Shown: positions 5,825-23,868 of the stretch, piece by piece | Position numbering within the stretch: position 1 is the first letter of the stretch | How the letters are laid out: every line of letters begins with the position of its first letter | Source: Thiotrichaceae bacterium | GTDB lineage: Bacteria; Pseudomonadota; Gammaproteobacteria; Thiotrichales; Thiotrichaceae | Reading direction: 5' to 3' | DNA length: 44,679 nucleotides | Assembly (NCBI GenBank): GCA_015486375.1 | Contig: WFRR01000033.1 | Location: 1-44,679 of the forward strand | The notes under the pieces: model-generated | Seen by the model: only the letters and a program-made list of their open reading frames with translations | Told to the model about the DNA's origin: nothing | Databases searched by the model: none | Translations under genes and position numbers: made by a program

Positions 5825-7069
5825 TTATTTTTCAGGTGTATCTGTTAATGCTTTAATCTCAGGCGTTATAGGAGCTTTCTCAGTTGCTGGTGTTACTGCT
5901 TTAGCTTCAGATTTTTCAGGCACTTTGACATCTGGTGTTACAATAGAAATTATTGGTGCTGATGGGGCTTTTGCATCTGCCGAATCAGCAGGTTTAGTCG
6001 CCGCAGCTTTGGACTCAGGTGTTTGTTCTTTATTAGGTGTTAATGCAGGAGCTTTTTGCTGCTTTTCATCCTGATGGTAGAAAGAATTTTTCTGCCAATT
6101 GGTATTGGCTTGTATAGCAGGAGATTTTTGCTGTTGCAGGGTTGCATGATTAGGTCTAGCGACATTTGAGCCATTATTCATAAATGGCATATTATCATTT
6201 AAGTGCATATTCGGCATTCTCCAACCTTTATCACTCATCGTTGGCATATTCCAGCCTGAACCTTGCTGCTGCATATTGGGCATTGTTGGAAGTGTTAACG
6301 GCGCATTATTATTACCCATCGTTGGCATTTTCCAATTAGAGTTATTACCATTACCCATCATTGGCATATTCCAGCCTGAACCATTTTTACCATTGCCCAT
6401 ATTCATATTGTTCATATTCGGCATTTTCATACCTGAACCATTACCCATATTCGGCATACCCCAACCCGAGCCATTTTTACTATTACCCATATTCATATTG
6501 GGCATCTTCCAACCTGAACCATTACCCATATTCATATTGTTCATATTCGGCATTTTCATACCTGAACCATTACCCATATTCGGCATTTTCCAGCCCGTAC
6601 CATCAGGTGTGCTTAATCTGGGTACAGACATGTTCTTCATATTGCCCATATTCATATTGGGCATTTTCATATTAGTATTGGGCATACTCATGCTAGGCAT
6701 GTTCATATTCATTGGCATCTGCATACCGTTATTTGCATTATTACCCTGCATCGGCATTTTCATATTAGTATTGGGCATACTCATGCTAGGCATGTTCATA
6801 TTCATTGGCATCTGCATACCGTTATTTGCATTATTACCCTGCATCGGCATTTTCATATTCGGCATACCCATCATATTATTATTGGCGGGGTAATTTGGAT
6901 AGTAAACAGGCGGGTTGTTAGCGGCTGTCGGGGCTGAATAAGTAGGGTAAGTATTACCTGCTGCTGTCGGAGCAGGGTTAGGATTGCTTGTTTCTGTGGT
7001 ATTTACAGGGTTTGCCATCAGTGCCGATGAGGCAACCAATAATGTACTACCAATAACAATATGCTTCAT
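5825..7069 (-). CDS. Secreted Met/Asn/Gly/Pro-rich repeat protein
   Basis: The 414-residue product has a short Sec signal peptide (about residues 1-19, with the cleavage-like site ALMA before NPV). A Pro/Asn/Tyr-rich stretch follows to about residue 65. A low-complexity core to about residue 290 is built of MPNMN, MNMP and GNGSGW units. The C-terminal third is rich in Ala, Pro, Lys and Glu. Two 31-residue blocks are identical. GGAGA lies just upstream of the ATG. I do not recognise the family. Met-rich, His-poor exported repeats suggest copper binding. Alternatively, repeat-rich Asn/Gly/Met envelope proteins resemble sulphur-globule or surface structural proteins. Both ideas are inference from composition only. 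Confidence 0.8.
   Translation of the reverse strand: MKHIVIGSTLLVASSALMANPVNTTETSNPNPAPTAAGNTYPTYSAPTAANNPPVYYPNYPANNNMMGMPNMKMPMQGNNANNGMQMPMNMNMPSMSMPNTNMKMPMQGNNANNGMQMPMNMNMPSMSMPNTNMKMPNMNMGNMKNMSVPRLSTPDGTGWKMPNMGNGSGMKMPNMNNMNMGNGSGWKMPNMNMGNSKNGSGWGMPNMGNGSGMKMPNMNNMNMGNGKNGSGWNMPMMGNGNNSNWKMPTMGNNNAPLTLPTMPNMQQQGSGWNMPTMSDKGWRMPNMHLNDNMPFMNNGSNVARPNHATLQQQKSPAIQANTNWQKNSFYHQDEKQQKAPALTPNKEQTPESKAAATKPADSADAKAPSAPIISIVTPDVKVPEKSEAKAVTPATEKAPITPEIKALTDTPEK
6661..6846. repeat. Perfect 2 x 93-bp tandem duplication inside the repeat gene
   Basis: Bases 6661-6753 and 6754-6846 are identical and in frame (31 codons each). The first 13 bases of a third copy follow at 6847. Identity at every base, including synonymous positions, indicates a recent duplication by slippage or recombination, within a region that is already made of shorter degenerate Met-Pro-Asn units. 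Confidence 0.9.
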
Positions 7070-7359: not shown

Positions 7360-7656
7360 ATGCAAAGTTTCAAAGGGTTAGACGATCTTGTCGGACGTTT
7401 ATCAGCTTCTATGCCCAGTTCAATTAAGCACTTACAGGCAGATATAGAAGATAATATTCGTTCAGGTTTAGAAAGTGGTTTACAAAAAATGCAGCTCGTC
7501 ACCCGAGAGGAGTTTGATATTCAAACGGCTGTGTTACTCAAAACCCGTCAAAAAATTGATGCTTTAGAGCAACGAGTACAATTGCTTGAACAACATTTAG
7601 ATATTTCGCTTAAAACCGATACACAATCTGAACAAGCTAATAAGTCCTCAGACTAA
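7360..7656 (+). CDS. ubiK: Ubiquinone biosynthesis accessory factor UbiK
   Basis: The 98-residue protein has the YqiC/BMFP layout. An amphipathic N-terminal segment (LDDLVGRLSASMPSS) is followed by a charged region and a C-terminal coiled coil (about residues 50-80, KIDALEQRVQLLEQHL). In E. coli UbiK helps UbiJ and the Ubi complex in aerobic ubiquinone synthesis and binds lipids. The ATG follows a good AGGAGA. The next gene starts 43 bases downstream on the same strand, so it may share the transcript. No other ubi genes are nearby. Confidence 0.88.
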   Translation: MQSFKGLDDLVGRLSASMPSSIKHLQADIEDNIRSGLESGLQKMQLVTREEFDIQTAVLLKTRQKIDALEQRVQLLEQHLDISLKTDTQSEQANKSSD

Positions 7657-7699: not shown

Positions 7700-8935
7700 A
7701 TGACCATTGCTTCTATAAAAATTCCAATTATTTTCTTACTTATAACCCTGCTTATTGTTCTTCTGATGATGACTAATAGTGCATTCTCTACAGAGAAAGA
7801 ATCCAATGATATTATTGAGCTAATTCTTCCTGAACAGGCAGAGGCAGGTCAAAAAATCAAAATTGAATGGAAAATCCCGACAGCATTTGAAGCATTAATT
7901 ATTGTGACAGATAATCTGGACAATAAAAACATAGATAGCAAAGGTACAGCCAATACTGGGACTCCGACTACAAATAAGTTCCAAGACTATAGAATGGAAA
8001 TTCCTGCTTATATTCAGCCAACAGGTTCTTATGAGCTAGTCATGCCGTCTAAAGCTAGTTCAGCCATGATTACTTTGCAGCGTGATAATAAAGTATTGAC
8101 TCAAAAAACGATTCAATTAAAACCTGCAAAAATTGCTATTCAAGCAGACACACAAATCGTTGCAGGTACTGTATTGGATTTAACGTGGCAAGCACCCAAA
8201 GGCTTAGCAGGTTTTATTAATATTCAGCCCATTGATGCCGATATTGATGATTATGCACAGCCACATGTGAGAATTGATCAACGTCAAGAGGCTTCAATGC
8301 GTGTACCGACCACCACAGGAGATTATATATTACGTTGGTATAGTGATCATGATCGTCAAGTGTTAGCACAACATAAGATTAAATTAATTAGTTCGGAAAT
8401 CAAAATCATTGCCCCTGAGCAAGCGATGCCTGGTGAGACATTAAAATTATCATGGCAAGCCCCAAAAGGTCTCGATGCTTTTATTAATATTCAACCCAGT
8501 GCAGATCCACAGGATTACAAAGCAAGTCCTTATGTGTATATCAATGATGATGCCCGTGCAGAATTAGCGTTACCGACTGAAGCAGGTAATTATACTTTGC
8601 GTTGGTATGATCGAGATAGTCATAAAATATTGGCAAAACGAACCATTATTTTATTAGGTGATTTTATTAGTATTCATGCGCCCGAATCCGTTATTGCAGG
8701 GCAAAAAGCTGAAATAAGCTGGAAAGCCCCTGATGATTTAGATTCTTTTATTAATATTCAACGAGTTGATCAAAAGGCAGATTATAATGCCACGCCTTAT
8801 ATTTATACACGTAGTAAACAAAAAGGGAATTTAGAAATACCTGAAGTCGCAGGGAAATATATCTTACGTTGGTATAACCGTACTGATGATAAAGTCATGG
8901 CAGAACGAAAAATTAAAGTTCTAGAAAAAGAATAA
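7700..8935 (+). CDS. Exported protein of four beta-sandwich-like repeats
   Basis: A hydrophobic N-terminal segment (residues 7-29, ending near NSAFS) acts as signal peptide or anchor. Four repeats of about 85-95 residues follow, at roughly 40-140, 143-230, 231-318 and 320-408. Each contains a pattern like A/P-G-x-x-L-x-L-x-W-x-A-P-x-x-L, then FINIQ, then an acidic YxxxPYxY strand and G-x-Y-x-L-R-W-Y. The repeats suggest tandem Ig-like or C2-like beta domains; similar repeats accompany VWA domains in other proteobacterial envelope proteins (family knowledge, not tested). The first repeat is the most divergent. It ends 7 bases before a YkuD-type gene, so the pair is probably an envelope-acting operon. 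Function is unknown. Confidence 0.8.
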   Translation: MTIASIKIPIIFLLITLLIVLLMMTNSAFSTEKESNDIIELILPEQAEAGQKIKIEWKIPTAFEALIIVTDNLDNKNIDSKGTANTGTPTTNKFQDYRMEIPAYIQPTGSYELVMPSKASSAMITLQRDNKVLTQKTIQLKPAKIAIQADTQIVAGTVLDLTWQAPKGLAGFINIQPIDADIDDYAQPHVRIDQRQEASMRVPTTTGDYILRWYSDHDRQVLAQHKIKLISSEIKIIAPEQAMPGETLKLSWQAPKGLDAFINIQPSADPQDYKASPYVYINDDARAELALPTEAGNYTLRWYDRDSHKILAKRTIILLGDFISIHAPESVIAGQKAEISWKAPDDLDSFINIQRVDQKADYNATPYIYTRSKQKGNLEIPEVAGKYILRWYNRTDDKVMAERKIKVLEKE

Positions 8936-9714: not shown

Positions 9715-12700
9715 TTATTGCACTCGTTCTATCATAGTTTCAATTTTATCAATAAAGGATAATCCATCATTATACCATTGATTATAAAGTGAATATCGTT
9801 CACCAACATACACCTCAATTTGGGGTTTGGCTAACCACTCTAATAAGATGTTGTAGATATTATCGAATCGTTTGTGATAACTGGGGTCGAGGTGGAAGCC
9901 AACACGAACATCATATTGTCCTGGGGTAAACACAATATCAAAATCGCCACCGCCATTACCATCTTGATTAATCCATGCAGGTAGGTCTTGTCTTTTGGCT
10001 TTTAAGGCTTCAATAAAATTAAGAATACTACGCTCTAGTTGACGATCTTCCTGAAAGCGAAACACGAGATAAAAGCGATATTGACTTCTAAAATTCATAT
10101 GATCTAAGCATTGTGGCGTGTAAATTAACTCCGTTCTGTCAACCATAAAATCTTCATAAAAAGCTTGTTGTAGATAAATTAAATCATCATGTAAATCACC
10201 AACGATAGCGCCTTTTCTACACATAAAGACTAATAGAATATCTCCCCAACCATCGGTTAAAAGTACTTTAATCACTAGCTCATTATTATTCTGGTTAAGT
10301 GCTTCAAACGCTGTAATTAAATGATTAAGATGATGTTCAACACTGCTATCAACAAAAGTGTATTGTCCATTTAAACAACGTGCATTGAGCAAACGATACA
10401 GTAGATTGAGACGCATGGAGCGACGTTGTAGTGAGATAGAAGAAATAGCATAGACTTGATAATCCTCATCATTAAAACAGCAATCACCATACAGTTTTAA
10501 AGAAAAGGCAATCTCTCGACGTGGAAAGTGAGAGACAAACGCTTCACTGGCATTTTGTACCTCAATATCATCTTCATTGTTTATTTGTAGTTTGCCATTG
10601 CGATCGGGAAAATGACTAATGCGACATAAGCAAGGTAAATTAGTATTAACAAAACTAACGACATCGTAGCGTCCTAATACAATGGAATAGTGGTTATAGT
10701 TATTCGATTGGTTATTGTGATTATTAACGGTTGTGATCGGTTGTAACCAACGATCTTGCTTTAATACATCCGCTAAGCCCAGCATATTCTGATTTCTATA
10801 TTTCCAAAGAGAGGGAATATTATCGCTATTAATTTTATCAAGATTACGCTTAGGGTTGGCAGTAGTGTACGCGCTACTCAAGGCTAAACGGGTAATCACA
10901 ACAGGAACAATCTCGGTGCAGGTGTGTGAATTATTTTCAGAAATATTATCTGGATAATGGGTATTACAAGCATGTAGTAAGAGGCTAAAGAAGTTATTTT
11001 TTTCAATACCTTTACAACGAGATTCATCCCGAATACGTAAGAATTCGATTAAATTTCCTAGTAATAACACTCCATCGACGATAATTTTAGAGCGTATATT
11101 ACGACATTGCATATAAATGTTTTCTTGTTGCCGACGGTCATTGATTAAGGGGCGAATCGTTTGTTCTAAAATTTGTAATAATTCTCTTAATTTATAACCT
11201 GCTACCTGTTCTAAACGACGTTTGCTTGCGGCAATTGTCGTATCACAAAAAGCATCATAGAGTTGAATTGCCCCAATTTTTTGCAACTCGGCTAGTTTTA
11301 AATCATTGGATTTACGTTGTAGGTAAACCTTACGAATTTTTTTATGACTATAAGCTTGTATTTTATCAACGATATGCTCACTACTGTTATACAGCCATCG
11401 TTCAATTATTTTTGTGAAATCTCCCAGTGCTGCAATTTTGATAGCGTATAAACTAGGCAATAAAAATGACAGCATATTGATACTGAGTAATACGCGACTT
11501 TTAGGCGATTCTCGATTCCATGTGTAGAACTCTAATGCAAAGGAAAATATTTCTCGTCCTAAGCTCATATCCTCATGACTTTGTTGTACAAATTCAAACC
11601 ATGAAACATAAGGATGTGCTTTATTATCCAAACGTCCCAGTAAATCAATACTACGCATAATCGAACACTGAAAAGGAATATCATGCAGTTGTCGAAACAG
11701 TTGATTAGAGTGTTGAAATTTTTGCTGGGTATGGGGAATATAGATGGAATCCAGACTGACTCCATAGGCATTACAGAATTCTTGTACACTGTTTTTATCA
11801 GTCATATTAAAACCTGATAAGGCTTTCTTGGGGGCTGTTTTCCGCTGTAGCGTTTCCAAAAAAATAAAATTTTGTAAGCGTACATCTAAACGAATCGTAG
11901 AGCGATGGTATTCTTTTTTACCCGACTTATTCCACTTTTCATCCCATGTATCTCGACTTCTATTATTTCTCCAGTGGGTAATGATTTTAAGTATCTTGGC
12001 TTTTTTAAAGCTTTTTTCTAATTTTTTACAAATCTTTCGCCATTCTGAGCCAACAGGATGACGAGCTGCTGAAATATTATGACAATCTAAGAAATCAATT
12101 AATTCCTCGCACACCTGATCAATACCATCAAAAACAATATGGTCTAGCTTAGAAAGCGGTGTATGTTTGGTTGTAGAGATTTTTTTAAGCCAGAAAGCGG
12201 TAAATTTTAAGCGAAAATACCAAGAATAATGGGCTTCATACGCTGCAATCCCACCTGTTAATTCTGCGACACTCGATAGCCGTACAGCACCATTAACGCG
12301 CAGTAAATTTTCCAGTCCTGCCCCCACACTGGATAAAAAAAGTGCATAAAGGTAAGAAATTCCTTTTAAACTCACCGCAAGACAGTCACTAACCAAATCA
12401 CGTATGAGTAAATCAGAGTTTTTATGAATGACTTCTAGACCGACGATGCCATAGCTCATATGGGTGATTTGCTTGGATAATGTGACCCATAATTGACTCA
12501 AATGATCTTGGCGAGAGGCATTATTAGCAAAATAGTCATCACTAAAGCCATCACTCAAACTACGTAAAGCAGAGTAGGCAACTTCTTTACTCACCAGTGG
12601 TTGTAAATCAGGACGGTCAGGTGACCAAAAGCTGGTATCTAAATAACTAATATCTTGTTTAGCCGCAATGTTATCAAAGCTTTTTAATTCTTTATAGTCT

Positions 12701-13566
12701 CGTCGAACATTATCCCAAAGCTGCTTATTACGGACATTCATTAAGGGTGACCAACCATGCAGAATCATAGAGCTATCGTCGTAGAGTTCTGTTTCACTTA
12801 GATTGGTAATTTGTTCCAATAAGTGCAATGTATCTGCTTGTAAATCAGTAGTTCGGTTAGAGAGAAAGTCATTAAAAATACCAATTTCACGTCGACGATC
12901 AACACTGGGACGGGGATAGCGTTGTAAACCAAAATCTAATGATTTACCAAAACTTTGTTGATGTGTGCGTAAGCTATTGATATAACGTTCTAAACGAAAG
13001 TGTATCCCACGTCTTAAAATTAAAAACTCGGGCTTCTCCAGACCGATATGCTTTTGGTGATTTTCATTTAATAAACCTGCATATTTGGCATCGTGAAATA
13101 GACGTACCTTATCGTGAAAGATTTGCTGTTTGAGTATTTGCAAAGCCCGTAGCGAATGATAATGTTGTCGTTCGCCTCTGACCCACATATCCGCAGACCA
13201 AATTTCACCAATACGACTTAACAGCCGTTTTTCAATATTGTTACCCTGACAACGCTTTGCATCTTTTTGATCACCCTGATGATACTTTGACCAGTAATCA
13301 ATCGCATCTTTAGGCGAAGGGTAGCGCAGAATAGCTTGTTCTGTTTTTTCTACAATGGTACGTTTTTTGGATTTCTCCCAACCCCCAAAAATAAATTTTT
13401 CTTCATGTCGCAAGGGTAAATATAAGGTCGGGGCGTGTAAGGAATCAATAATGCTTTGTTGTAAATGTCGTACTTCTAGTAATAAAATATTTAAACGATC
13501 TGCTGTATCCAAAAAGCTGAGTAGATAAAGATTATCTTTTGCTCGTCGATAGTTACATTTAGCCAT
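9715..13566 (-). CDS. Giant uncharacterised protein, possible repeated alpha/beta C-terminus
   Basis: This is an intact 1283-residue soluble-looking protein that I cannot assign to a family. The first ~900 residues are mostly helical, rich in Arg, Leu, His and aromatic residues, with no Walker A, nuclease or helicase motif that I can see. Three related segments lie in the last third: LGRYDVVSFV (near 965), DGWGDILLVF (near 1107) and PGQYDVRVGF (near 1216). The last two are followed by a helix and a strand. This recalls ferredoxin-like RAM, ACT or Dabb domains, where G-x-Y-D starts a beta strand; that is inference. It is the second gene after a membrane protein (35-base gap), so the two probably act together at the membrane. 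Confidence 0.8.
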   Translation of the reverse strand: MAKCNYRRAKDNLYLLSFLDTADRLNILLLEVRHLQQSIIDSLHAPTLYLPLRHEEKFIFGGWEKSKKRTIVEKTEQAILRYPSPKDAIDYWSKYHQGDQKDAKRCQGNNIEKRLLSRIGEIWSADMWVRGERQHYHSLRALQILKQQIFHDKVRLFHDAKYAGLLNENHQKHIGLEKPEFLILRRGIHFRLERYINSLRTHQQSFGKSLDFGLQRYPRPSVDRRREIGIFNDFLSNRTTDLQADTLHLLEQITNLSETELYDDSSMILHGWSPLMNVRNKQLWDNVRRDYKELKSFDNIAAKQDISYLDTSFWSPDRPDLQPLVSKEVAYSALRSLSDGFSDDYFANNASRQDHLSQLWVTLSKQITHMSYGIVGLEVIHKNSDLLIRDLVSDCLAVSLKGISYLYALFLSSVGAGLENLLRVNGAVRLSSVAELTGGIAAYEAHYSWYFRLKFTAFWLKKISTTKHTPLSKLDHIVFDGIDQVCEELIDFLDCHNISAARHPVGSEWRKICKKLEKSFKKAKILKIITHWRNNRSRDTWDEKWNKSGKKEYHRSTIRLDVRLQNFIFLETLQRKTAPKKALSGFNMTDKNSVQEFCNAYGVSLDSIYIPHTQQKFQHSNQLFRQLHDIPFQCSIMRSIDLLGRLDNKAHPYVSWFEFVQQSHEDMSLGREIFSFALEFYTWNRESPKSRVLLSINMLSFLLPSLYAIKIAALGDFTKIIERWLYNSSEHIVDKIQAYSHKKIRKVYLQRKSNDLKLAELQKIGAIQLYDAFCDTTIAASKRRLEQVAGYKLRELLQILEQTIRPLINDRRQQENIYMQCRNIRSKIIVDGVLLLGNLIEFLRIRDESRCKGIEKNNFFSLLLHACNTHYPDNISENNSHTCTEIVPVVITRLALSSAYTTANPKRNLDKINSDNIPSLWKYRNQNMLGLADVLKQDRWLQPITTVNNHNNQSNNYNHYSIVLGRYDVVSFVNTNLPCLCRISHFPDRNGKLQINNEDDIEVQNASEAFVSHFPRREIAFSLKLYGDCCFNDEDYQVYAISSISLQRRSMRLNLLYRLLNARCLNGQYTFVDSSVEHHLNHLITAFEALNQNNNELVIKVLLTDGWGDILLVFMCRKGAIVGDLHDDLIYLQQAFYEDFMVDRTELIYTPQCLDHMNFRSQYRFYLVFRFQEDRQLERSILNFIEALKAKRQDLPAWINQDGNGGGDFDIVFTPGQYDVRVGFHLDPSYHKRFDNIYNILLEWLAKPQIEVYVGERYSLYNQWYNDGLSFIDKIETMIERVQ

Positions 13567-13601
13567 TGTGTATTTTTACCATCCTTTCTTTAATAACAGT
13601 A

Positions 13602-14831
13602 CTAGGTACTGAAACCGTTAAAACCTGAAGAAAATATTTCCACTAACATTAAAAAGGTGACTAATGCTCCTGCTTGAACCAAACGTAGTACGGACTCAAC
13701 TTGCTCGATTCCCTGACTAATTTGTTTATCATCAGGGATTTTTGCGACCACTCGTAGGATTTGTTGCGGAATAAGATCAAGGTGAGCATTGTAATAGCCT
13801 TCGCGTATATCTTCTTGTAAGGTTTCTAAAAATGCAATTTGTTTCACAATCATACCGAAGGTCAGTAAAAACCATATAACAATCAATACTGTATAAAAGA
13901 AAGGAAACTGAAATAAAACAGGCACTTCAACTGTTAGGCTTGTCGGGTAAAGTGATGAAGAGATAAAAAATAGTATAAAAAGATAGGCATAAGTAATAAT
14001 TGCGGGGCTAAATAAATATAACCAGCCTCGCACTTTGAGACTTTTCCGATATTTATGCCCTTTTTTATTATTTTTCGCTTCATTGGGATAAAACAAATAA
14101 TCAAATATCGCCAAATGTAAGATGACCTCTTGCAGGCTATTTTTCCCCTTTGCATAATAAGAAGGTTGGTGTGATAGGGGGCTGCTATTATCAGGATTCC
14201 AGTATTTATGCTTTTCTTTGTGCTTATCGGTTTTATCAATATCCGAAAAATGTGGCACGGTCAAAAAGCGTGCATAGTGTGATTTTGGCCATAAAGACCA
14301 GACTTGATTGAGTACAGGCGGTGAAGTGCGTGCTACAAAAATAAAGGTTATTTTCATAGAGATAATAATAAATACTAAAGCCGCGAGTGTGTAGTAAATT
14401 TTACCATCAACTTCTACGCCCTCTTTTACACCGAGTAAATAAAGAAAAGGAATTAATGTACTCGACAGTAAAAGTAGATAGTAATTTATATCTTGATAAA
14501 GACGATCAGGCCAAAGAAATAGGCCATATTTTGCATAATGTTCAGGTCTCGCTTCACTTAAAGCAGAACGTTGATTCGGTGGAACACCGTACAAGGGAGG
14601 GGGAAAGTAATTACGGTAAGATCCATGTTCTTGATCTCGTAATGGTGCGACTCGCAAAATAAAATCACTGTCTGTTCCAAAGCGACAAAAGTACTTTTTA
14701 ATAAAGGCAAGGGTTGCAAAAATCTTAAAAAAGAAACCTAAAATAGCTAAAATTATAAATAAAAAAAATCGAAAAAACTGCATTAACTGTTGTCTACAAG
14801 CCATTAATATACCTTGATCAAGCGTTGTCAT
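13602..14831 (-). CDS. Uncharacterised multi-pass membrane protein
   Basis: The 409-residue product has about six hydrophobic segments (near residues 20-44, 117-135, 146-167, 270-292, 309-334 and 382-402). Two polar regions separate them: about 50-115, containing a Pro-rich NYFPPPLYGVPP stretch, and about 168-268, rich in His, Lys and Tyr. A soluble helical region at 335-380 precedes the last segment. I do not recognise the family. It is the first gene of a two-gene unit with the 1283-residue protein. The annotated ATG lacks a ribosome binding site. An in-frame ATG nine codons later (near 14804) is preceded by AAGG and is a plausible alternative start. Confidence 0.75.
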   Translation of the reverse strand: MTTLDQGILMACRQQLMQFFRFFLFIILAILGFFFKIFATLAFIKKYFCRFGTDSDFILRVAPLRDQEHGSYRNYFPPPLYGVPPNQRSALSEARPEHYAKYGLFLWPDRLYQDINYYLLLLSSTLIPFLYLLGVKEGVEVDGKIYYTLAALVFIIISMKITFIFVARTSPPVLNQVWSLWPKSHYARFLTVPHFSDIDKTDKHKEKHKYWNPDNSSPLSHQPSYYAKGKNSLQEVILHLAIFDYLFYPNEAKNNKKGHKYRKSLKVRGWLYLFSPAIITYAYLFILFFISSSLYPTSLTVEVPVLFQFPFFYTVLIVIWFLLTFGMIVKQIAFLETLQEDIREGYYNAHLDLIPQQILRVVAKIPDDKQISQGIEQVESVLRLVQAGALVTFLMLVEIFSSGFNGFST

Positions 14832-17894: not shown

Positions 17895-18017
17895 AAGAAT
17901 GGAGTATGAATGATTAATAAGAGGGAGATTATAACAAATTGAAAATGTTTCAAGATTGACATGTTACTTTTATTAAGGCGAAGACTCCCGTATAGTGTAA
18001 GCCGTTTCAGCAAATCA
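17895..18017. promoter_or_regulatory. Divergent tsaD / gcv promoter region
   Basis: This gap must contain the gcv promoter upstream of the riboswitch. TTGACA at 17956-17961 is a perfect -35 hexamer and CGTATAGTG (TATAGT at 17991-17996) is a good -10-like string. They are 29 bases apart, too far to work as a pair. The TATAGT with an upstream TTTTAT is the likelier gcv promoter. Assignment is tentative. Confidence 0.35.
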
Positions 18018-18230
18018 CCATGCAGGAGAGAGTTGCTCAATGCAACCACCGAAGGCGAAAACCGCTCGGAAACGCTCAGGTCTAATGGACTGTATGGAAG
18101 GATAAACTTATTGTAGTTTGTCAGGCTGGCTCTGGAGAGTAGTGTAAATAGATACACTCACCGAAGGGTAGTAACTTAATTCAATCATCGCATAGAATTA
18201 AGGAATCTCTCAGGTTTCAGGACAGAGGGG
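18018..18230 (+). ncRNA. Tandem glycine riboswitch
   Basis: Two glycine aptamers lie in series upstream of gcvT. Aptamer 1 (about 18018-18100) has GGAGAG at 18025-18030, CCGAAGG at 18049-18055 and a CGCTCAGGT...GGACTGTATGG tail. Aptamer 2 (about 18129-18230) has GGAGAG at 18134-18139, CCGAAGGG from 18161 and the canonical CTCTCAGGTTTCAGGACAGAGG end. A short linker joins them. In studied bacteria glycine binding turns on the gcv genes, so excess glycine is degraded. A strong terminator hairpin follows at once, giving a transcriptional on-switch. Confidence 0.95.
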
Positions 18231-18262
18231 CGGCAGAGGCTAATGCCATCTGCCGCCTTTTT
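18229..18262 (+). terminator. Riboswitch expression-platform terminator
   Basis: GGCGGCAGA (18229-18237) pairs with TCTGCCGCC (18249-18257), with an inner GGC/GCC extension, followed by five T residues (18258-18262). The 5' arm overlaps the very end of aptamer 2, so glycine-stabilised folding can compete with terminator formation. A second small hairpin (18271-18277 with 18291-18297) lies between it and gcvT. Confidence 0.92.
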
Positions 18263-23197: not shown

Positions 23198-23273
23198 TGG
23201 CGTCCCCACAGGGATTCGAACCCCGGTTGCCGCCGTGAAAGGGCAGTGTCCTAGGCCACTAGACGATGGGGAC
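23198..23273 (-). tRNA. tRNA-Glu (TTC), copy 1
   Basis: The minus strand gives a complete cloverleaf with acceptor GTCCCCA/TGGGGAC, anticodon loop CTTTCAC (anticodon TTC), T-loop TTCGAAT and encoded CCA. It is 76 bases with CCA. The D-arm and T-arm differ from the two other tRNA-Glu copies next to it, making this the divergent member. It is the last gene of the tRNA operon. Confidence 0.96.
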
Positions 23274-23356
23274 ATAATAATCTTGCTAATAAAAATAGAA
23301 AAATCTTCTAAATAATTATGGAAAAGCAAAAATAAAGGAATTTGAGATAAGAAAGA

Positions 23357-23431
23357 TGGTGTCCCCACGGGGACTTGAACCCCGGTTACCGCCGTGAAAG
23401 GGCAGTGTCCTAACCGCTAGACGATGGGGAC
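23357..23431 (-). tRNA. tRNA-Glu (TTC), copy 2
   Basis: This is a full cloverleaf of 75 bases including encoded CCA, anticodon TTC in CTTTCAC, T-loop TTCAAGT. It is identical to copy 3 over its whole length, and the first ~11 bases of the 5' flank are shared, indicating a recent duplication. Confidence 0.96.
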
Positions 23432-23475
23432 GACACTATCAAACATATTGAAACAACTAACATTAGTCAAGTAAA

Positions 23476-23550
23476 TGGTGTCCCCACGGGGACTTGAACC
23501 CCGGTTACCGCCGTGAAAGGGCAGTGTCCTAACCGCTAGACGATGGGGAC
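23476..23550 (-). tRNA. tRNA-Glu (TTC), copy 3
   Basis: Same sequence as copy 2, with encoded CCA. It lies 15 bases downstream of the stop of the 68-residue membrane protein in the direction of transcription, so the protein gene and the tRNA must be separated by RNA processing if they share a transcript. Confidence 0.96.
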
Positions 23551-23565
23551 GACACTATCAACTTA

Positions 23566-23772
23566 CTATTTTCGATCTGATTCTCTAGGTGCAAATAAAG
23601 CAACCGTTGCTACGCCAGTAAATAAAATTAAAAAACCGACGGGGACAATCATTAGCAATACTTTAACTAAAGCATCATAACCACCATAAAACATTAATCC
23701 AAAGCCTGCAATAAACGCTATTGCGGTGATGATCAAACCGATTATCACACAAATACGACCTAATTTAGCCAT
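23566..23772 (-). CDS. Small membrane protein within the tRNA operon
   Basis: The 68-residue product starts MAKLGRICVIIGLIITAIAF, has two hydrophobic segments (about 6-29 and 36-60) and ends in a charged tail (PRESDRK). The ATG at 23770-23772 is preceded by AGAGAGG. The frame is open further upstream, but that extension is translated tRNA-Ala and is not real. The gene is sandwiched between tRNA-Ala and three tRNA-Glu genes, all on the same strand. Function is unknown; small two-segment membrane proteins of this kind are common and poorly studied. Confidence 0.75.
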   Translation of the reverse strand: MAKLGRICVIIGLIITAIAFIAGFGLMFYGGYDALVKVLLMIVPVGFLILFTGVATVALFAPRESDRK

Positions 23773-23792
23773 ATTTAAAACCTCTCTTCTTC

Positions 23793-23868
23793 TGGTGGAG
23801 CTAAGCGGGATCGAACCGCTGACCTCTACACTGCCAGTGTAGCGCTCTCCCAGCTGAGCTATAGCCCC
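23793..23868 (-). tRNA. tRNA-Ala (GGC)
   Basis: The minus strand folds into a standard cloverleaf beginning GGGGCTATAGCTCAG, with anticodon loop CTGGCAG (anticodon GGC), T-loop TTCGATC and encoded CCA. It is the first gene of the tRNA operon, about 10 bases after the predicted transcription start. Confidence 0.97.

Follow-up and report, generated by a model that had tools for sequence, protein, structure and literature searches.

Gluzincin metallopeptidases (clan MA(E)) carry the signature HExxH...ExxxD, in which a HExxH sequence is followed downstream by ExxxD. Membrane-coupled peptidase modules and pseudoproteases are already known in kind. Among described systems the closest parallel to the locus treated here is found in the FxSxx-COOH and FtsH-ternary peptide-processing systems, in which a zincin is encoded beside a small tailed protein, near NTP-dependent conflict systems (Kaur et al. 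2020, PMC7159879). A literature search returned these systems as the only parallel, and no paper on the gene pair or on the three-gene unit described below.

This work concerns two adjacent genes in the window, i.e., the whole stretch of 44,679 nucleotides that was analysed, taken from the genome of a marine relative of sulfur bacteria (Thiotrichaceae). We propose that the two genes form one operon, and that the giant protein it encodes is coupled to the membrane and of zincin-type descent; this protein would be a pseudopeptidase in the window's clade, and the operon would go back to a three-gene ancestor. We assign this reading a probability of about 0.6.

The gene pair in the window

A preliminary description of this DNA had reported, side by side on the minus strand, a six-segment membrane protein of 409 residues and an intact protein of 1283 residues, and the open reading frames (ORFs) and a hydrophobicity scan bear this out. 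The membrane partner gene (13602..14831, minus strand, ATG start) encodes 409 aa with about six hydrophobic segments in a simple Kyte-Doolittle scan. The gene for the giant protein (9715..13566, minus strand, ATG start), taken from the ORF list and supported by alignments, encodes 1283 aa, and its product looks soluble. The intergenic gap (13567..13601, minus strand) is 35 bp long and contains a AAGGATGG-type ribosome-binding site ahead of the large gene and nothing resembling a terminator; the two genes therefore probably share a single transcript. In relatives the genes of the pair overlap or nearly touch.

The 1283-aa protein can be aligned over its full length, at 32-40% identity, with intact proteins of other Thiotrichaceae genomes. 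When the large gene is compared with those of genome G016 and Cocleimonas SW1_6, the third codon position proves more variable than the second (0.62 vs 0.34); dN/dS is ~0.2 against Cocleimonas SW1_6, a rough value with synonymous changes near saturation, and 0.28 for a closer Thiosymbion pair. The full-length relatives and a codon pattern as under purifying selection argue that the ORFs are not a product of chance: on sequence comparison both are real genes, and the earlier suggestion that the long intact frames are under selection stands.

The membrane partners share the signature (F/L)xLRIAP...PPPGYGxPP...YxLxLxPxxL...PPVLxxVWxxWP, and those of the window group are homologous to those of the loci with an intact metal motif (hhalign probability 98.8%, E 7e-17). 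Of 15 loci with readable flanks, 14 have the membrane gene next to the giant gene, the sole exception being L069, which is without an adjacent membrane gene. At L068 (7503-8970) the membrane gene is split into two frames within an otherwise intact three-gene locus, as a result of either a frameshift or an assembly error. Neither the 409-aa nor the 1283-aa protein found a family match in Pfam, NCBIfam or PADLOC, and the PDB gave no relative of the 1283-aa protein. The pair is thus conserved and belongs to no described family, as had been supposed, and the profile and structure searches recommended at that time gave no clear match to a characterised family, with no Foldseek match at E < 0.001.

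Elsewhere in the window, a secreted-looking protein with Met/Asn/Pro/Gly-rich repeats (MKMPxM, NMNMGNG) and no Pfam match is encoded at 5825-7069 (minus strand); a Met-rich protein resembling it, with no homology detected, is encoded near the pair at L028 (3076-4038). The 411-aa exported protein encoded at 7700-8935 (plus strand) contains three to four copies of a domain of ~90 residues (VAGQKAEISWKAP...) with weak Pfam matches. At 18013-18235 (plus strand) a tandem glycine riboswitch is followed by gcvT, gcvH and split gcvP genes, an ordinary arrangement, and four tRNA genes are clustered at 23201-23868 (minus strand).

The zincin-like domain and its metal site

Giant proteins of this family are 1050-1340 aa long. 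HExxH is present mid-protein, at one and the same alignment column, in all nine non-degenerate distant relatives, in the variants HEVAH, HECGH, HELGH and HECAH, and in each of the nine ExxxD follows 46-70 residues downstream. Only nine columns are invariant when the nine motif-intact relatives are aligned in the motif region, and five of them are the H, E, H, E and D of the motif. The preliminary description had noticed no motif of a known family; this is correct for the window copy, in which the motif has decayed, but not for the family, in which HExxH...ExxxD is intact in nine relatives.

An AlphaFold2 model was obtained for the intact relative of locus L040 (1163 aa, 13 sequences, pTM 0.73). 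In this model HEVAH is located on a helix (residues 310-328) preceded by a three-strand sheet, and the third-ligand Glu, E376, on another helix (370-387), with pLDDT of about 80-93 at the motif helices; this predicted order of elements is consistent with that of zincins. The last 340 residues are filled by beta-alpha ferredoxin-like repeats. Based on the model, the window's giant protein would consist of a helical N-terminal part, a central zincin-like domain without metal ligands, a helical middle part and C-terminal ferredoxin-like repeats. In Foldseek searches a viral library yielded a SprT-like match (probability 0.99) and a BepA-like match (0.41), neither with E < 0.001; ferredoxin-like and MgtC/ACT-type matches, none with E < 0.001, are taken to be to the C-terminal part.

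Profile searches of Pfam and NCBIfam with the intact relatives matched no peptidase family, and PADLOC and the PDB, too, gave these relatives no sequence match of weight; low-scoring matches to SLS1_N, Formyl_trans_C, DUF6058 and alternative oxidase were judged to be due to chance. Because the Foldseek matches are weak and the window's own domain model (AlphaFold2, pTM 0.75) found no zincin match in the PDB by Foldseek, the zincin assignment is based on the motif and the order of the helices. These two features suggest that the giant protein probably derives from a zincin-type peptidase family, and that the intact copies would have peptidase activity.

The pseudo-zincin domain of the window (residues 225-575; 11842..12894, minus strand) was located by alignments with relatives, including the nine motif-intact ones, and by the AlphaFold2 model. 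In this domain KEVAY replaces HExxH and DLVSD replaces ExxxD, the third-ligand Glu being changed to Asp; since it has neither HExxH nor the third Glu, the protein is not filed as an active peptidase. The six nearest relatives have KYVAE, NPIAK, HEIAD, HEIAK, HEVAN and REVAV at the decayed site. The second His is absent in all seven motif-degenerate sequences, which form one clade (support 100/100). Motif-degenerate giant proteins are still full-length wherever the contigs permit, and since the full length is otherwise kept, the metal-less form is, judged by its sequences, retained and not decaying. In genome G028 the unit has been lost, and a 77-aa remnant of the giant C-terminal part is found there (L070, 11990-12223).

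The third gene and the surroundings of the unit

At all eight motif-intact loci with readable flanks (L037, L040, L041, L044, L068, L069, L087 and L088), the unit is adjoined by a small gene encoding a coiled-coil protein of 90-218 aa. This gene is located upstream of the membrane gene in L037, L041, L068 and L088, beside the membrane gene in L040 and L087, and in divergent orientation in L044; L069 carries two such genes. None was found beside the readable motif-degenerate loci (window, G016, G011, G022 and G009), and when 13 genomes were searched for the coiled-coil protein at other places, only generic coiled coils turned up. The BMFP/YqiC gene of the window (7360-7656) was considered as the missing third gene on account of its coiled-coil score, and was rejected as a member of an ordinary Pfam family (PF04380). 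The two-gene unit first described is therefore valid for the window's clade, but the ancestral-looking unit has three genes. The absence of the third gene and the loss of the metal site fall on the same branch and therefore count as one event, so that the link between them may be a coincidence.

Among the C-terminal tails of the coiled-coil proteins are ...FRRARPYRR, ...WVRERYYRR, ...WEREHPFRR, ...YKRVRTHNRA and ...DNRRVR. In seven of nine proteins the final 12 residues include 3-6 Lys/Arg, compared with 1.2-1.9 expected from the remaining protein, and both L069 proteins end in DDD. The coiled-coil proteins appear too short and plain for proof of common descent, and we do not regard them as demonstrably homologous. 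L069 (262-7173) is a second, diverged copy in a Magnetococcales genome, with the giant gene in two overlapping frames and the same acidic tail (ADW...LDDD) in both coiled-coil proteins.

The window's genome is close to Thiotrichaceae, Leucothrix and Cocleimonas metagenome-assembled genomes (MAGs). Within the window's order, 9 of 63 genomes have the giant protein, the decayed remnant in G028 being counted; in the class, 2 of 369 sampled genomes have it, one of them the window's own. It was further detected in 3 of 48 genomes from the class to which the Magnetococcales genome belongs and in 1 of 25 from the phylum of the Campylobacterota genome. Relatives are sporadic in other Gammaproteobacteria, Magnetococcia and Campylobacterota, and those with names include Candidatus Thiosymbion oneisti, a Robbea ectosymbiont, a Magnetococcales MAG and a Campylobacterota MAG. 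In the window's clade no conserved neighbours besides the pair itself were found. In G002, of the same genus, the membrane gene has neighbours other than those in the window, and the L,D-transpeptidase gene that lies next to the window pair is located elsewhere without the pair; the unit therefore changes its chromosomal position.

Such patchy occurrence and changing positions would suit an anti-phage or conflict system, in which the coiled-coil protein senses or relays infection, the peptidase cleaves a target, and the membrane protein serves as effector or anchor, the window clade carrying a variant that works without catalysis. Three loci have fitting neighbours: the L090 remnant adjoins a helicase and a T5orf172 gene, L069 adjoins a KAP NTPase that matches the PADLOC candidate PDC-S20, and at L088 (3104-20000) the three-gene unit adjoins TniB and TnsD/TniQ genes and a Cap4-like nuclease with a STAND NTPase, so that it is possibly cargo of a Tn7-like element. 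Against this, most loci, including the whole of the window's clade, lie among housekeeping genes; PADLOC-DB 2.0.0 gave no match for the window proteins or the intact relatives, and searches of phage, plasmid and viral-contig collections did not return the pair. We consider this explanation somewhat unlikely. A defence role is a guess, as a few relatives adjoin Tn7-like or candidate defence genes and most do not. Of the membrane-coupled module anticipated by the preliminary description, the general frame has been kept; its association with defence is confined to few distant relatives and is not seen in the window's clade. In the sense of the neighbourhood survey proposed at that time, the 15 readable loci confirm the pairing in 14 cases, and defence genes are seen at those few distant relatives.

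Proposed function and comparison with known systems

The order small gene - membrane gene - peptidase gene in L037, L041, L068 and L088, and tails that are short and conserved-looking, are also consistent with peptide maturation and export, with the coiled-coil protein as the precursor, the peptidase freeing its C-terminal tail, and the membrane protein exporting or sensing the peptide; the zincin with a small tailed protein described in PMC7159879 is a parallel. We regard this as unlikely: the tails range from mostly Arg-rich to Asp-rich (two tails, both of L069) and have no FxSxx motif, no radical-SAM gene was noticed among the ORFs listed beside the loci (Pfam-scanned in part), and the membrane protein does not match transporter families. 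Still less probable is an origin of the giant protein outside the peptidases, in which case HExxH...ExxxD would be a metal site of some other sort or have a structural role, and the pair would form a complex for scaffolding or transport. Foldseek indeed gave no significant zincin, and the nine-relative alignment weakly matches alternative oxidase (a di-iron protein, E about 1); against this reading, the five invariant residues are spaced and placed on helices as in gluzincins, downstream of a three-strand sheet, and the SprT-like match is of high probability.

We therefore return to the membrane-coupled protein of zincin-type descent. The ancestral unit would have comprised three genes, one for the giant peptidase, one for a multi-pass membrane protein and one for a small coiled-coil protein whose C-terminal tail is exposed. 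We infer that the peptidase is most likely docked at the inner membrane by the membrane protein, which would also control it, and that it most likely has the tailed coiled-coil protein as substrate or trigger. The one Thiotrichaceae clade to which the window belongs would have lost its metal ligands together with the third gene and kept the other two genes intact, and there the giant protein probably acts as a pseudopeptidase with a binding or scaffolding role at the membrane. More tentatively, and with rather more doubt than belief, the three-gene system of Proteobacteria and Campylobacterota may be a regulated-proteolysis device for immunity or stress, which in one lineage turned into a selected non-catalytic two-gene form.

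With these results an unnamed gene pair is placed in a family that is absent from the libraries searched, and the family gains a catalytic motif open to test and a third component. It also offers a natural case of what is probably a bacterial peptidase without its metal site, yet intact across 1,283 residues. If the intact forms are regulated peptidases of conflict or stress, they would represent a new type of membrane-coupled proteolytic module.

Compared with gluzincins of clan MA(E), such as M48 and SprT-like peptidases, the motif-intact relatives are alike in having a HExxH helix and, downstream of it, a helix that bears the Glu of ExxxD, and in the weak SprT-like and BepA-like structural matches. 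They differ in that the giant family has no detectable sequence relation to the peptidases of Pfam and NCBIfam, and in that the domain is enclosed in a protein of far greater extent with other parts, the window copy being without ligands. The FxSxx-COOH systems (PMC7159879) are comparable to the intact loci, where a probable zincin is likewise encoded next to a small protein that evolves fast and has a more conserved C-terminal tail. Unlike them, the unit described here has no FxSxx tail, includes a multi-pass membrane gene and encodes a giant putative peptidase; the window lineage appears to be without catalysis and without the small gene, and no small precursor with an FxSxx, RxD or acidic C-terminal motif was found beside the window pair. 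Pseudoproteases such as FtsHi and the inactive CLCA-type zincins (PMC8197885, PMC3650047) belong to families unrelated to the giant protein, but have kept a peptidase fold after the loss of catalytic or metal-binding residues, as the giant protein of the window probably has.
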